Below are positions 49,111-51,327 of a stretch of DNA of 63,424 bases, in pieces. Both the position numbers and the translations under genes were made by a program. Each line of letters starts with the position of its first letter. Position 1 is the first letter of the stretch. The stretch covers positions 1 to 63,424 of the forward strand of contig JAGCPJ010000078.1 in assembly GCA_017965765.1 (NCBI GenBank). The letters are read 5' to 3'. The stretch is from Bacteroidales bacterium (GTDB lineage Bacteria; Bacteroidota; Bacteroidia; Bacteroidales; F082). The notes beneath the pieces were generated by a model. That model was not told the DNA's origin. It saw nothing but the letters and a program-made list of their open reading frames with translations, and ran no database searches.

Positions 49111-49118
49111 TAATTTTG
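49111..49118 (+). promoter_or_regulatory. -7 promoter element of the gene at 49150
   Basis: TAATTTTG on the plus strand, 31 bases before the ATG at 49150; together with the argS element it makes a divergent promoter region. Confidence 0.6.
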
Positions 49119-49149: not shown

Positions 49150-49734
49150 ATGAAAAAGTATGTATTTATCACCCTGCTGTTCTCCATGATGACGATCAGC
49201 ACCCAAGCACAATGGTTTGACCTAACAGAAAACAAAGAACGCGCCGTTGTCGGCTTCAACACCGGCTTGGTTGGTTACCGCTCAGTCCAAGATCTCAGTA
49301 GCTCCCAAACGTGGGATTTAAGCGACGTTGGCGTAGGCGCCAGTATCGCCATCGCTGGTTTCTATGCTGATTTCATCTATGTCACCCCCGACCATCGCTT
49401 TGACAGTCACATCATTTTAGGCAATTGGGACGACCATTCCGCATTCACCCTTAACGCAGGTTACCAATTCCCGATTTACAAAGACTATGTGTTCGTCACG
49501 CCCATGATTGGCTGGAGCCGCGTTACCACGGGTTACACCGAGGGCAGCGACGTTGAGATCGATTTCGAAGCTCAGTCCATCTACCACAAATACCACCCGA
49601 CCTGGCATCGCGACAACTTCAACTATGGAGCAGGCCTCACCGTGGTTCCCTGCAAGTGGTTCGAGATCAATGCCACCTGTACCGCTCACGCCTTCTACTT
49701 TGGCGTTGCTTTAAATATCATGAATTACAACTAA
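49150..49734 (+). CDS. Hypothetical exported protein, beta-strand rich
   Basis: 194 residues. Signal peptide about 1-20 (MKKYVFITLLFSMMTISTQA). The rest alternates short strands with aromatic residues (VVGFNTGLVGYRSV, YVFVTPMIGWSRVTTGY, FNYGAGLTVVPCKWFEINATC) and ends in an aromatic/polar run, as in small outer-membrane barrels. I do not recognise a named family. It has its own promoter. Its transcript may read through to the pyrB leader. Confidence 0.7.
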   Translation: MKKYVFITLLFSMMTISTQAQWFDLTENKERAVVGFNTGLVGYRSVQDLSSSQTWDLSDVGVGASIAIAGFYADFIYVTPDHRFDSHIILGNWDDHSAFTLNAGYQFPIYKDYVFVTPMIGWSRVTTGYTEGSDVEIDFEAQSIYHKYHPTWHRDNFNYGAGLTVVPCKWFEINATCTAHAFYFGVALNIMNYN

Positions 49735-49774
49735 GATTTTTTTAAAAAAAGACTTTGTTTTTGAAAGATATTCC

Positions 49775-49782
49775 TATATTTG
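49775..49782 (+). promoter_or_regulatory. -7 promoter element of the pyrB leader
   Basis: TATATTTG, 40 bases past the end of the preceding gene, upstream of the leader frame and of the terminator. No other -7 element lies between the terminator and pyrB, so pyrB transcription from this promoter must cross the terminator. Confidence 0.65.
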
Positions 49783-49789
49783 CATTCCG

Positions 49790-49912
49790 ATGATGTACGA
49801 AAAAATGTCACCGGAATACTTTATCAAAGGAATCGAGACGGTTGCTTTATCGCAGCCGTCTTTTTTTTGCAATCAACAAACTAAACACCATAGGCCATGT
49901 CCATCTCACTGA
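49790..49912 (+). CDS. Possible 40-codon leader peptide of pyrB
   Basis: The frame from the first of two adjacent ATGs (49790, 49793) reads MMYEKMSPEYFIKGIETVAL in its first 20 codons. It runs through the terminator stem and the T-run and ends at 49912, past the pyrB start at 49897. The E. coli pyrBI leader peptide (pyrL) has a similar length (44 codons) and also passes its attenuator. Coding potential is unproven; length and position are the only support. Confidence 0.4.
   Translation: MMYEKMSPEYFIKGIETVALSQPSFFCNQQTKHHRPCPSH
49836..49868 (+). terminator. Attenuator-like terminator in the pyrB leader
   Basis: A ten-pair stem (AGACGGTTGC with GCAGCCGTCT, one G-T pair) closes on a six-base loop TTTATC and is followed by eight T. 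It lies 28 bases before the pyrB ATG and downstream of the -7 element at 49775-49782. Confidence 0.8.
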
Positions 49913-50817
49913 AAAACCGTAGCTTGATCTCCATCAGCGACTACACGCCCGAGGAGATCTGCCATGTGCTTGACATCGCAGAAGATTTCGAGCGCAATCC
50001 GCACCAGAACCTTCTCAACGGGCGCATCATCGCCTCGTTGTTTTTCGAACCTTCCACCCGTACGCGACTGAGTTTCGAGACGGCCATCCAACTGCTGGGT
50101 GGCAATGTCATCGGCTTCAGCAGCACCTCTGGCACCAGCGTCCAAAAAGGAGAGTCGCTTGCCGACACCATCACCATGGTCGCCAGCTATGCCGACCTCA
50201 TCGTCATGCGCAACCCCATCGACGGCTCCGCCCGCCTCGCCTCCGAAGTGTCGAAGGTGCCGATCATCAATGCCGGCGACGGCTCCAACCAACACCCCAC
50301 CCAGTGCATGCTCGACCTTTACAGCATCCGCAAGACACAAGGCACGCTGGAAAACCTCGAAATCACCCTGGTGGGAGACTTGAAATACGGCCGCACCGTA
50401 CACAGCCTAGTGGAAGCCATGAGCCACTTCAACGCCAAATTCAACCTGGTGTCACCCGTGGAACTGAAACTCCCCAGAACCGTGAAACAACACATCAAGG
50501 ACGCCCATCTCGAATACGAACAGTTCACCGAATTGGAGGATGTCATCCCCCACTCCGACATTATCTACATGACGCGTGTACAACGCGAGCGTTTTCCCGA
50601 TCCATTGGAATACGAAAAGGTGAAGAACTCATACGTGCTGCGTAACGCCATGTTGGCCAATGCCAAGCCCAACTGCCGCGTCCTACACCCCCTGCCGCGC
50701 GTCAACGAAATCCATGTCAATGTGGACGCCAACCCGAAGGCCTACTACTTCCAGCAGGCACAAAACGGCGTATATGCTCGTCAAGCGCTCATCGCAGCTA
50801 TCCTAGGGTTAAAATAA
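49897..50817 (+). CDS. pyrB: Aspartate carbamoyltransferase, catalytic chain
   Basis: 306 residues. First committed step of pyrimidine synthesis. Marks: FFEPSTRTRLSFETA (carbamoyl phosphate binding), MRNPIDGSARLASE, NAGDGSNQHPTQCMLDLYSI and HPLPRVNEI. Length is normal. It precedes pyrI by 45 bases, and its leader has an attenuator-like structure. Confidence 0.96.
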   Translation: MSISLKNRSLISISDYTPEEICHVLDIAEDFERNPHQNLLNGRIIASLFFEPSTRTRLSFETAIQLLGGNVIGFSSTSGTSVQKGESLADTITMVASYADLIVMRNPIDGSARLASEVSKVPIINAGDGSNQHPTQCMLDLYSIRKTQGTLENLEITLVGDLKYGRTVHSLVEAMSHFNAKFNLVSPVELKLPRTVKQHIKDAHLEYEQFTELEDVIPHSDIIYMTRVQRERFPDPLEYEKVKNSYVLRNAMLANAKPNCRVLHPLPRVNEIHVNVDANPKAYYFQQAQNGVYARQALIAAILGLK

Positions 50818-50862: not shown

Positions 50863-51327
50863 ATGGAAAAGAGAAAAGAACTGATCGTTTCAGCCATTGA
50901 GAATGGCACGGTCATCGACCATATCCCCGCCGACAAAGTGTTCCAGGTCGTCAAGATCCTGGGCTTGGACAAAGTGACGCATCCGGTGTATCTTGGCATC
51001 AACGTCGAAAGCAAGAAGTTCGGCACCAAAGGATTCATCAAGGCGGCTGACAAGTACTTTGCCCCCGAAGACGTGAACAAGATCGCGCTGGTGGCCCCTA
51101 CCGCATCCATCATCGAAATCAAGGACTTTGAAGTGGTCAACAAAATGACGGTACAAATCCCTGAGCGGATTGAGAAGATCGTCAAATGCTTCAATCCGAA
51201 CTGCGTCACCAACAAGGAGCACGACATCGCCACGAAATTCCGCGTGAAATATGTCGATGGCAAGCTTCGCTTGGTATGCCACTACTGTGAGAAATACACC
51301 TCGGAAGAGAACATTGAATTCATCTAA
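50863..51327 (+). CDS. pyrI: Aspartate carbamoyltransferase, regulatory chain
   Basis: 154 residues from the ATG at 50863 (MEKRKELIVSAIENGTVIDHI); a TTG at 50848 would be less likely. The N-terminal allosteric domain binds CTP/ATP. The C-terminal zinc domain has the Cys set in CFNPNCVTN and CHYCEKY. Together with PyrB it forms the allosteric dodecamer, inhibited by CTP in E. coli. Confidence 0.95.
   Translation: MEKRKELIVSAIENGTVIDHIPADKVFQVVKILGLDKVTHPVYLGINVESKKFGTKGFIKAADKYFAPEDVNKIALVAPTASIIEIKDFEVVNKMTVQIPERIEKIVKCFNPNCVTNKEHDIATKFRVKYVDGKLRLVCHYCEKYTSEENIEFI

Follow-up and report, generated by a model that had tools for sequence, protein, structure and literature searches.

A probable pyrL-like attenuator with a pyrimidine start upstream of pyrBI in a family of Bacteroidales

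The window, the whole stretch of 63,424 nucleotides analysed from a Bacteroidales bacterium (contig JAGCPJ010000078.1), carries on its forward strand pyrB, encoding the catalytic chain of aspartate carbamoyltransferase (49897–50817; Pfam PF02729, E = 1.5e-45, and PF00185, E = 1.3e-30), and pyrI, encoding the regulatory chain (50863–51327; PF01948, E = 1.4e-28, and PF02748, E = 3.1e-15). The gene that precedes them on the same strand (49150–49734), for which no Pfam match was found, possesses its own −7 element at 49111. The elements found between this gene and pyrB all lie on the forward strand. A −7 promoter element, TATATTTG, occupies positions 49775–49782 and is kept in the window's clade; a TTTG at 49754–49757, 17 nt 5' of it, is a possible but weak −33 element, recognized from the sequence alone. 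The initially transcribed region (49786–49792) consists of a pyrimidine run, TCC, at the predicted +1 (49787), followed by GATG. Hairpin 1 (49784–49817) begins at or beside this position, at the predicted 5' end of the RNA, and encloses the leader AUG; in the minimum-energy fold, ATTCCG (49784–49789) pairs with CGGAAT (49812–49817), with a TGA/TCA extension. Two ATG codons are present, at 49790 and 49793. The first opens a leader ORF of 40 codons (49790–49912) that crosses an intrinsic terminator and stops 16 nt into pyrB. This terminator, the putative attenuator (49835–49868), is strong, with a stem of 11 pairs, six of them G-C (49835–49862), and eight T at 49861–49868, followed by a G. The −7 element, the two ATG codons, the 40-codon frame, the terminator and the upstream hairpin had been pointed out in a first-pass annotation, and a check of the window confirmed each of these observations.

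Folding of the window leader gives −32 kcal/mol (z = −4.1), a stability that none of 200 shuffled sequences equals. Compared with the window, nine relatives from its clade show 88–91% identity in the segments of the −7 element, the hairpin and the terminator. Identity is lower elsewhere: 58% in the spacer that precedes the promoter, 80% over 49818–49834 and 77% from the terminator to pyrB.

A PyrB scan yielded at least 572 confirmed relatives, of which the best 80, mostly from rumen and gut Bacteroidales assemblies, were kept and compared together with the window (81 pyrB loci, those of L012 and L013 being identical). The element TAnnTTTG[CT] lies upstream of an intrinsic terminator before pyrB at 64 of the 81 loci. 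At six others the terminator is present without an upstream −7 element (L005, L033, L042, L052, L070 and L079), the stretches of L033 and L042 beginning just 125 and 76 nt before pyrB, and at the 11 remaining ones the terminator is absent (L004, L009, L015, L032, L043, L074–L077, L080 and L081). In L005, whose PyrB is 99% identical, the terminator directly follows the upstream gene, on which pyrBI may depend for expression by read-through. As L005 lacks the −7 element and L004, L009, L015, L032 and L043 lack the terminator, the device is dispensable. By sequence comparison, the leader is conserved across the window's family.

In every one of the 64 leaders that combine a −7 element with a terminator, the ORF starting at the first ATG downstream of the −7 element extends to the terminator region. 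This ORF ends inside or beyond the stem in 63 leaders, and past the 3' arm in 55. The exception is L008, where it stops 11 nt before the stem; L008 and L007, both of the window's clade, carry indels in the leader. Stop codons between the ATG and the T tract were counted in 58 distinct family leaders out of 60, L004 and L009 being left out for want of a terminator. Frames 0, 1 and 2 contain 9, 158 and 99 stops, against about 125 expected from shuffles, the count in frame 1 being biased by the ATGA start. Frame 0 is free of stops in 50 of the 58 leaders, against 6.9 expected. The relatedness of the leaders was controlled for by permutation and by simulation on the pyrB tree. In two groups aligned without gaps (14 and 17 leaders), column permutation gave P values of 0.0016 and 0.0002, permutation within blocks of 12 gave 0.0074 and less than 0.0002, and none of 1500 runs simulated from an open ancestor was stop-free in either group. 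When the window's clade is considered alone, retention of the frame is not significant (no stops in six leaders, permutation P of about 0.10); the ORF reaches the stem region in all 11 leaders of this clade that have a −7 element and a terminator. The terminator is read in different frames by different lineages, and is still reached.

The clear synonymous-site bias anticipated in the first-pass annotation was not observed. Before the terminator, changes are distributed over the three codon positions as 39/55/45 and 54/53/57 in the two largest groups, without excess at third positions. The proportion of synonymous pairs among codon pairs with a single difference was 21% observed for 21% expected in group A, 35% for 22% in group B, 31% for 23% in group C and 25% for 17% in the window's group, that is, a moderate excess in one of four groups. 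That the ORF serves to encode a conserved peptide is not supported, the changes being spread over the codon positions, and the peptide has no Pfam match up to an E-value of 0.01. Some constraint on the peptide may remain, weak overall, with the moderate synonymous excess of group B. The comparison indicates that the open frame up to the stem has been kept in evolution far more than any peptide sequence. Rare stops in frame 0 together with little constraint on the peptide are what would be expected of a pyrL-type leader.

The locus was compared with the attenuation mechanism of E. coli pyrBI, as set out in PMC10135430 and PMC4824070. In both cases, a short ORF begins close to the transcript start, crosses an intrinsic terminator located between the promoter and pyrB, and extends to the start of pyrB. 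When E. coli pyrL was analysed in the same way, 88 nt were counted on the fold string between ATG and stem, and a hairpin, a U-rich tract and eight T followed by a G were recognized. The E. coli ORF stops 3 nt before pyrB, and its U-rich tract contains 44–48% T, the 5' end also reaching 40–44%. The corresponding distance is 87–89 nt in 39 of the 53 leaders outside the window's clade, the other 14 spanning 65–114 nt; in the relatives, the terminator is also preceded by a hairpin and a U-rich tract, and the T tract is likewise T8 followed by G. The comparison with the E. coli leader covered its geometry. Unlike in E. coli, the promoter is of the Bacteroidota type and the leader AUG, enclosed in a hairpin, lies only a few nucleotides from where the RNA is predicted to begin; leaders of the window's clade, moreover, measure only 44–48 nt from ATG to stem and have no U-rich tract. 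With an ORF that reaches the terminator region throughout, little amino-acid constraint and a near-E. coli geometry, the pyrL-like layout first proposed for the window is supported.

T makes up 36–72% of the 25 nt that precede the stem in each of the 47 family leaders outside the window's clade, with group means of 47–59% vs 21–30% in the rest of the leader. Upstream of this U-rich tract, a further hairpin (hairpin 2) is predicted, with mean z-scores of −1.1 in group A, −1.4 in group D, −1.7 in the four basal leaders, −2.7 in group B and −3.2 in group C; it is thus weak in some groups. In the window's clade (10 leaders), the T content before the stem averages 18% (range 4–24%), and no U-rich tract can be discerned. 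The initial remark that a U-rich pause site was not obvious in the window was correct; all 47 family leaders measured outside the clade carry the tract, which by comparison has been lost within it. In the pyrB tree, the window's clade is nested among long-leader lineages (support of 0.84 with group A, and 0.83 with groups A and B), and because of this nesting its short leader is most simply regarded as derived. Hairpin 2 and the U-rich tract were most likely ancestral and lost from the window's clade by deletion, as judged from the relatives. The sequence GGAATC at 49829–49834 looks like a remnant of hairpin 2, namely of its 5' arm; the 3' arm and the U-rich tract that follow this motif in relatives are missing in the window.

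As had been claimed, TAnnTTTG does not recur between the terminator and pyrB, with the qualification that the T tract and the following G (TTTTTTTG) conform to this consensus except for the A. This leaves room for a different explanation, in which the terminator would be a constitutive throttle or belong to the upstream gene, and pyrB would have its own promoter downstream, perhaps with TTTTTTTG as the −7 element. A run of exactly eight T is found in 49 of 55 distinct leader terminators vs 4 of 45 other terminators at the same loci, and a G follows the run in 52 of 55 vs 11 of 45. Such a bias could betray a promoter, but T8G also occurs in E. coli pyrL, and TTTTTTTG is devoid of the conserved A. 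Transcription from the fifth base after the G would produce a 5' UTR of 23 nt, the commonest length in B. thetaiotaomicron (PMC7366714). The absence of a −7 element upstream of the terminator in L005, and the presence in several other Bacteroidales of an upstream terminator with no visible −7 element before pyrB, are also compatible with a downstream promoter; a consensus −7 element is however conserved upstream of the terminator, and the frame-specific absence of stops would be left unexplained. This explanation is considered improbable.

The Flavobacterium sigma-A box TAnnTTTG is positioned at −12 to −5 (PMC9723704), so that +1 is predicted to be the fifth base after TTTG, which is the C at 49787. 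Bases 4–10 after the −7 element read YYYGATG in all 58 distinct leaders, the pyrimidines being TCC in 42, TTT in 10, CCC in 3 and CTT in 3. By comparison, YYYG occurs at none of 36 other promoter-like sites of the same loci, most of which carry purines at bases 5–6. The YYYG start is retained in the terminator-less L004, L009, L015, L032 and L043, in the last three of which the ORF has been lost as well. Across the order, with the box written as TAnnTTT[GA], YYYR follows the nearest −7 element at 15 of 53 pyrB loci, a count that excludes 26 of 79 loci without such an element; the rates in controls are 5/101, 35/519 (overlapping sets) and 4/43, with Fisher P values of 9e-5, 9e-6 and 0.018. The pyrimidine start extends wider than the attenuator, being enriched at pyrB promoters across the order. 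In a separate observation, the start reads TTTG instead of TCCG in L025, L028, L053–L057, L059, L062 and L063, and outside the family in L177. At E. coli carAB, three consecutive T among the first transcribed bases are required for UTP-dependent reiterative transcription.

In E. coli pyrC, transcription switches its start between C and G, and a hairpin covers the gene's own ribosome site. A pyrimidine start followed by a purine 2–3 nt on, and a TCCG...CGGA hairpin in the start region, are common to pyrC and to the leaders described here. Folds were computed from successive start bases. For pyrC, one of three CCG sites was chosen, which we take to be the start, and the folds from its T, C, C and G amount to −9.7, −8.1, −5.0 and −3.0 kcal/mol; the folds from bases 4–8 of the window amount to −9.2, −7.6, −4.5, −2.5 and −2.1 kcal/mol. 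The leaders differ from pyrC in that their hairpin lies over the beginning of a leader ORF and that the gene concerned is pyrB. In the main group (33 leaders), the mean energies from bases 4, 5, 6, 7 and 8 are −8.1, −6.9, −4.1, −2.3 and −0.8 kcal/mol, and the AUG is unpaired to 8% with a start at base 4, 19% at the G (base 7) and 75% at the A (base 8). The corresponding values in the window's clade are 34, 48 and 67%. L071–L073 have a different hairpin in place that behaves in the same way. The computed ladder thus describes a 5'-terminal hairpin that needs the nucleotides of the pyrimidine start; it is weak in group C (8 leaders, −1.4 kcal/mol). Among 23 leaders folded singly, the 5' end of L028, L045, L054, L057 and L061 is no better than shuffles. 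The hairpin had originally been suggested to act as a competitor or to sequester the starts. It holds the leader AUG in its 5' arm and may be a start-switch hairpin of the pyrC kind, beyond a mere competitor.

The resemblance of the energy ladder to that of pyrC raises the possibility that pyrimidines are sensed wholly at the start site, the ORF and terminator being secondary or decaying in the window's clade. Retention of YYYG where the terminator is gone, and the loss of the U-rich tract from the window's clade, would agree with such a scheme. It accommodates less well that, in this same clade, conservation is similar for the terminator, the hairpin and the −7 element and that the ORF reaches the stem region in every leader with a −7 element and a terminator, and it is regarded as unlikely.

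Covariation lends modest support to hairpin 1. The paired cells amount to 87.5%, against 25–49% when the partner is slid and 86.6% when the 3' letters are shuffled among sequences. Nine cells are changed on both sides, a number reached in 2 of 500 shuffles; pairs with changes on both sides and pair types are no more numerous than after shuffling. The conservation of the hairpin and this limited covariation could also reflect the binding of a protein or ligand to hairpin 1 or the leader RNA, in the manner of PyrR or of a ribosomal protein. The hairpin and its loop nevertheless vary widely, the structure is weak in group C and a different one replaces it in L071–L073. A weak match to the L20 leader overlaps the leader (E = 0.58), with a score of 20.7 bits vs a gathering score of 58.7; this lone sub-threshold Rfam match was rejected. 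No PyrR was found over the cut-off in the window's genome (G000, 76% complete) or in a 99% complete congener (G258), and no PyrR-type RNA figures among Rfam matches up to an E-value of 5, so that PyrR attenuation finds no counterpart there. Recognition of the leader by a binder is therefore rated as very improbable.

The extent of the layout was evaluated in the order Bacteroidales. Genes for pyrB were detected at an E-value of 1e-60 in 183 of 198 genomes, and the upstream DNA was taken for 80 loci, 79 of them outside the genus (the pyrB start codon of L110 was set by hand for the counts below and for those of the YYYR start). TAnnTTTG located 60–230 nt before pyrB and followed by a terminator was found at just 9 of the 79 loci, and the expectation that the arrangement would be general among Bacteroidales did not hold. 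The ORF from the first ATG comes within 12 nt of the stem, or goes beyond it, at seven of these nine loci, L156 and L171 being the exceptions. These counts suggest a device proper to the family, with scattered look-alikes elsewhere in the order. Sampling at the level of the class was uninformative, as 7 of 159 genomes passed the E-value of 1e-60. At many loci of the order, a terminator is present without an upstream −7 element in the stretch, several visibly after the end of the upstream gene. In L106–L109, L112, L116, L120, L124 and L131, pyrB follows a terminator without a recognisable −7 element between them. ORFs beginning with MKR were seen by eye to precede pyrB in other families (L110, L118, L142 and L152) and may encode unrelated leader peptides.

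When the YYYR loci of the order were folded (n = 16), only two, L130 and L181, lose a stable hairpin upon a shift of the start. In another Bacteroidales family, a YYYR start was found at 8 of 30 loci, and in five of these eight the hairpin is weaker by at least 1 kcal/mol when the start is moved from base 5 to base 7. At four or five of the eight, the 5' end can pair with the start-codon region of pyrB. This pairing, with 5' ends such as TCCGTAT and TCCA, was noted in L208 (the L181 locus, of G073), L216, L217, L219 and L220, with L223 next to it. If it operates, it would amount to a direct pyrC-like switch on pyrB itself.

The start motif was searched for as a possible mark of a regulon, which was not supported: the exact motif occurs once in the 76% complete window assembly, at pyrB. 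Ten of 70 matches with one or two mismatches were viewed; two are promoter-like, L085 and L095, neither with the leader layout, and the remaining eight lack TAnnTTTG. L085 (G000:C4:31315) is thus a second promoter-like site of the window's own genome, with the start TCCGATA, followed after 35 nt by the ORF of an unknown protein; L095 precedes a thioredoxin-like protein, as identified by eye. Fourteen of 15 loci of pyrE, pyrD and carA were viewed, and none has a YYYR start or such a leader; the window's own genome, in which no match to these three genes was found over the cut-offs, is not represented among them. CarA, the small chain of carbamoyl-phosphate synthase, was over the cut-off in three of seven genomes searched, but not in G000 or in the 99% complete G258.

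The comparison of leaders establishes the conservation of the −7 element, the pyrimidine start, the open frame and the terminator, and, in most groups, of the 5' hairpin. The region is best interpreted, with a probability of roughly 0.7, as a transcription attenuator of pyrBI which, like its E. coli counterpart, is switched by translation of the leader ORF. RNA polymerase would start at about position 49787 and meet the strong intrinsic terminator some 80 nt on. A ribosome close behind on the leader ORF would cover the 5' arm of the terminator, allowing the polymerase to continue into pyrB and pyrI; with no ribosome close behind, transcription would stop. In the ancestral form, whose anatomy is seen in the relatives, hairpin 2 and the U-rich tract would make the polymerase wait at low UTP. 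As the start and the frame persist in the window's clade without this tract, any pyrimidine sensitivity of its leaders should sit at the 5' end. In mapping studies, 5' UTRs shorter than 10 nt represent 3.7% in B. thetaiotaomicron (PMC7366714) and leaderless transcripts 5.5% in F. psychrophilum (PMC9723704). As short leaders are rare in mapped Bacteroidota, efficient translation of the leader ORF is not assured.

A more elaborate scheme can be put forward tentatively, with less than even odds, in which pyrBI of this family would have two pyrimidine sensors in series. The first would be the choice of start at CCGATG, where the hairpin hides a near-leaderless AUG, and translation would then decide on termination; the window's clade would have kept the first sensor and dropped the U-rich pause. 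With plentiful pyrimidines, a start on C would yield the full hairpin over the leader AUG. At low pyrimidines, the start would move to G or A. From the sequence and computed folds, a start on G would leave a weak hairpin with the AUG still mostly paired, and with a start on A the AUG would be leaderless and mostly open. The scheme is weakened by the paired state of the AUG upon a G start, and because L085 has the same start without a leader.

The control of pyrimidine synthesis has been well studied in enterics and in Bacillus. Among the papers listed in literature searches on pyrB or pyrBI control, or on leader peptides, in Bacteroidota, none was on pyrB there, as judged mostly by titles and the beginnings of abstracts. 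Leader peptides or attenuation have been suggested in Bacteroidota for other genes (PMC7366714 and PMC9723704). For the amino-acid operons of Flavobacterium psychrophilum and the leader sORFs of B. thetaiotaomicron, the 5' region is likewise long or structured and bears a leader ORF. These examples concern amino-acid operons or unvalidated sORFs, and pyrBI is not among them in the excerpts of these sources. Relative to the pyrL layout, the YYYGATG start with a 5' hairpin over the leader AUG is new and would add a possible folding switch at the beginning of the RNA.

The near-E. coli spacing between leader ATG and terminator in a distant phylum suggests that this spacing may follow the geometry of the ribosome and polymerase, and the leader offers a natural test of transcription–translation coupling in Bacteroidota. 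If start switching is true, two known nucleotide sensors would be joined in one leader, and the clades that lack one or the other would constitute natural experiments.
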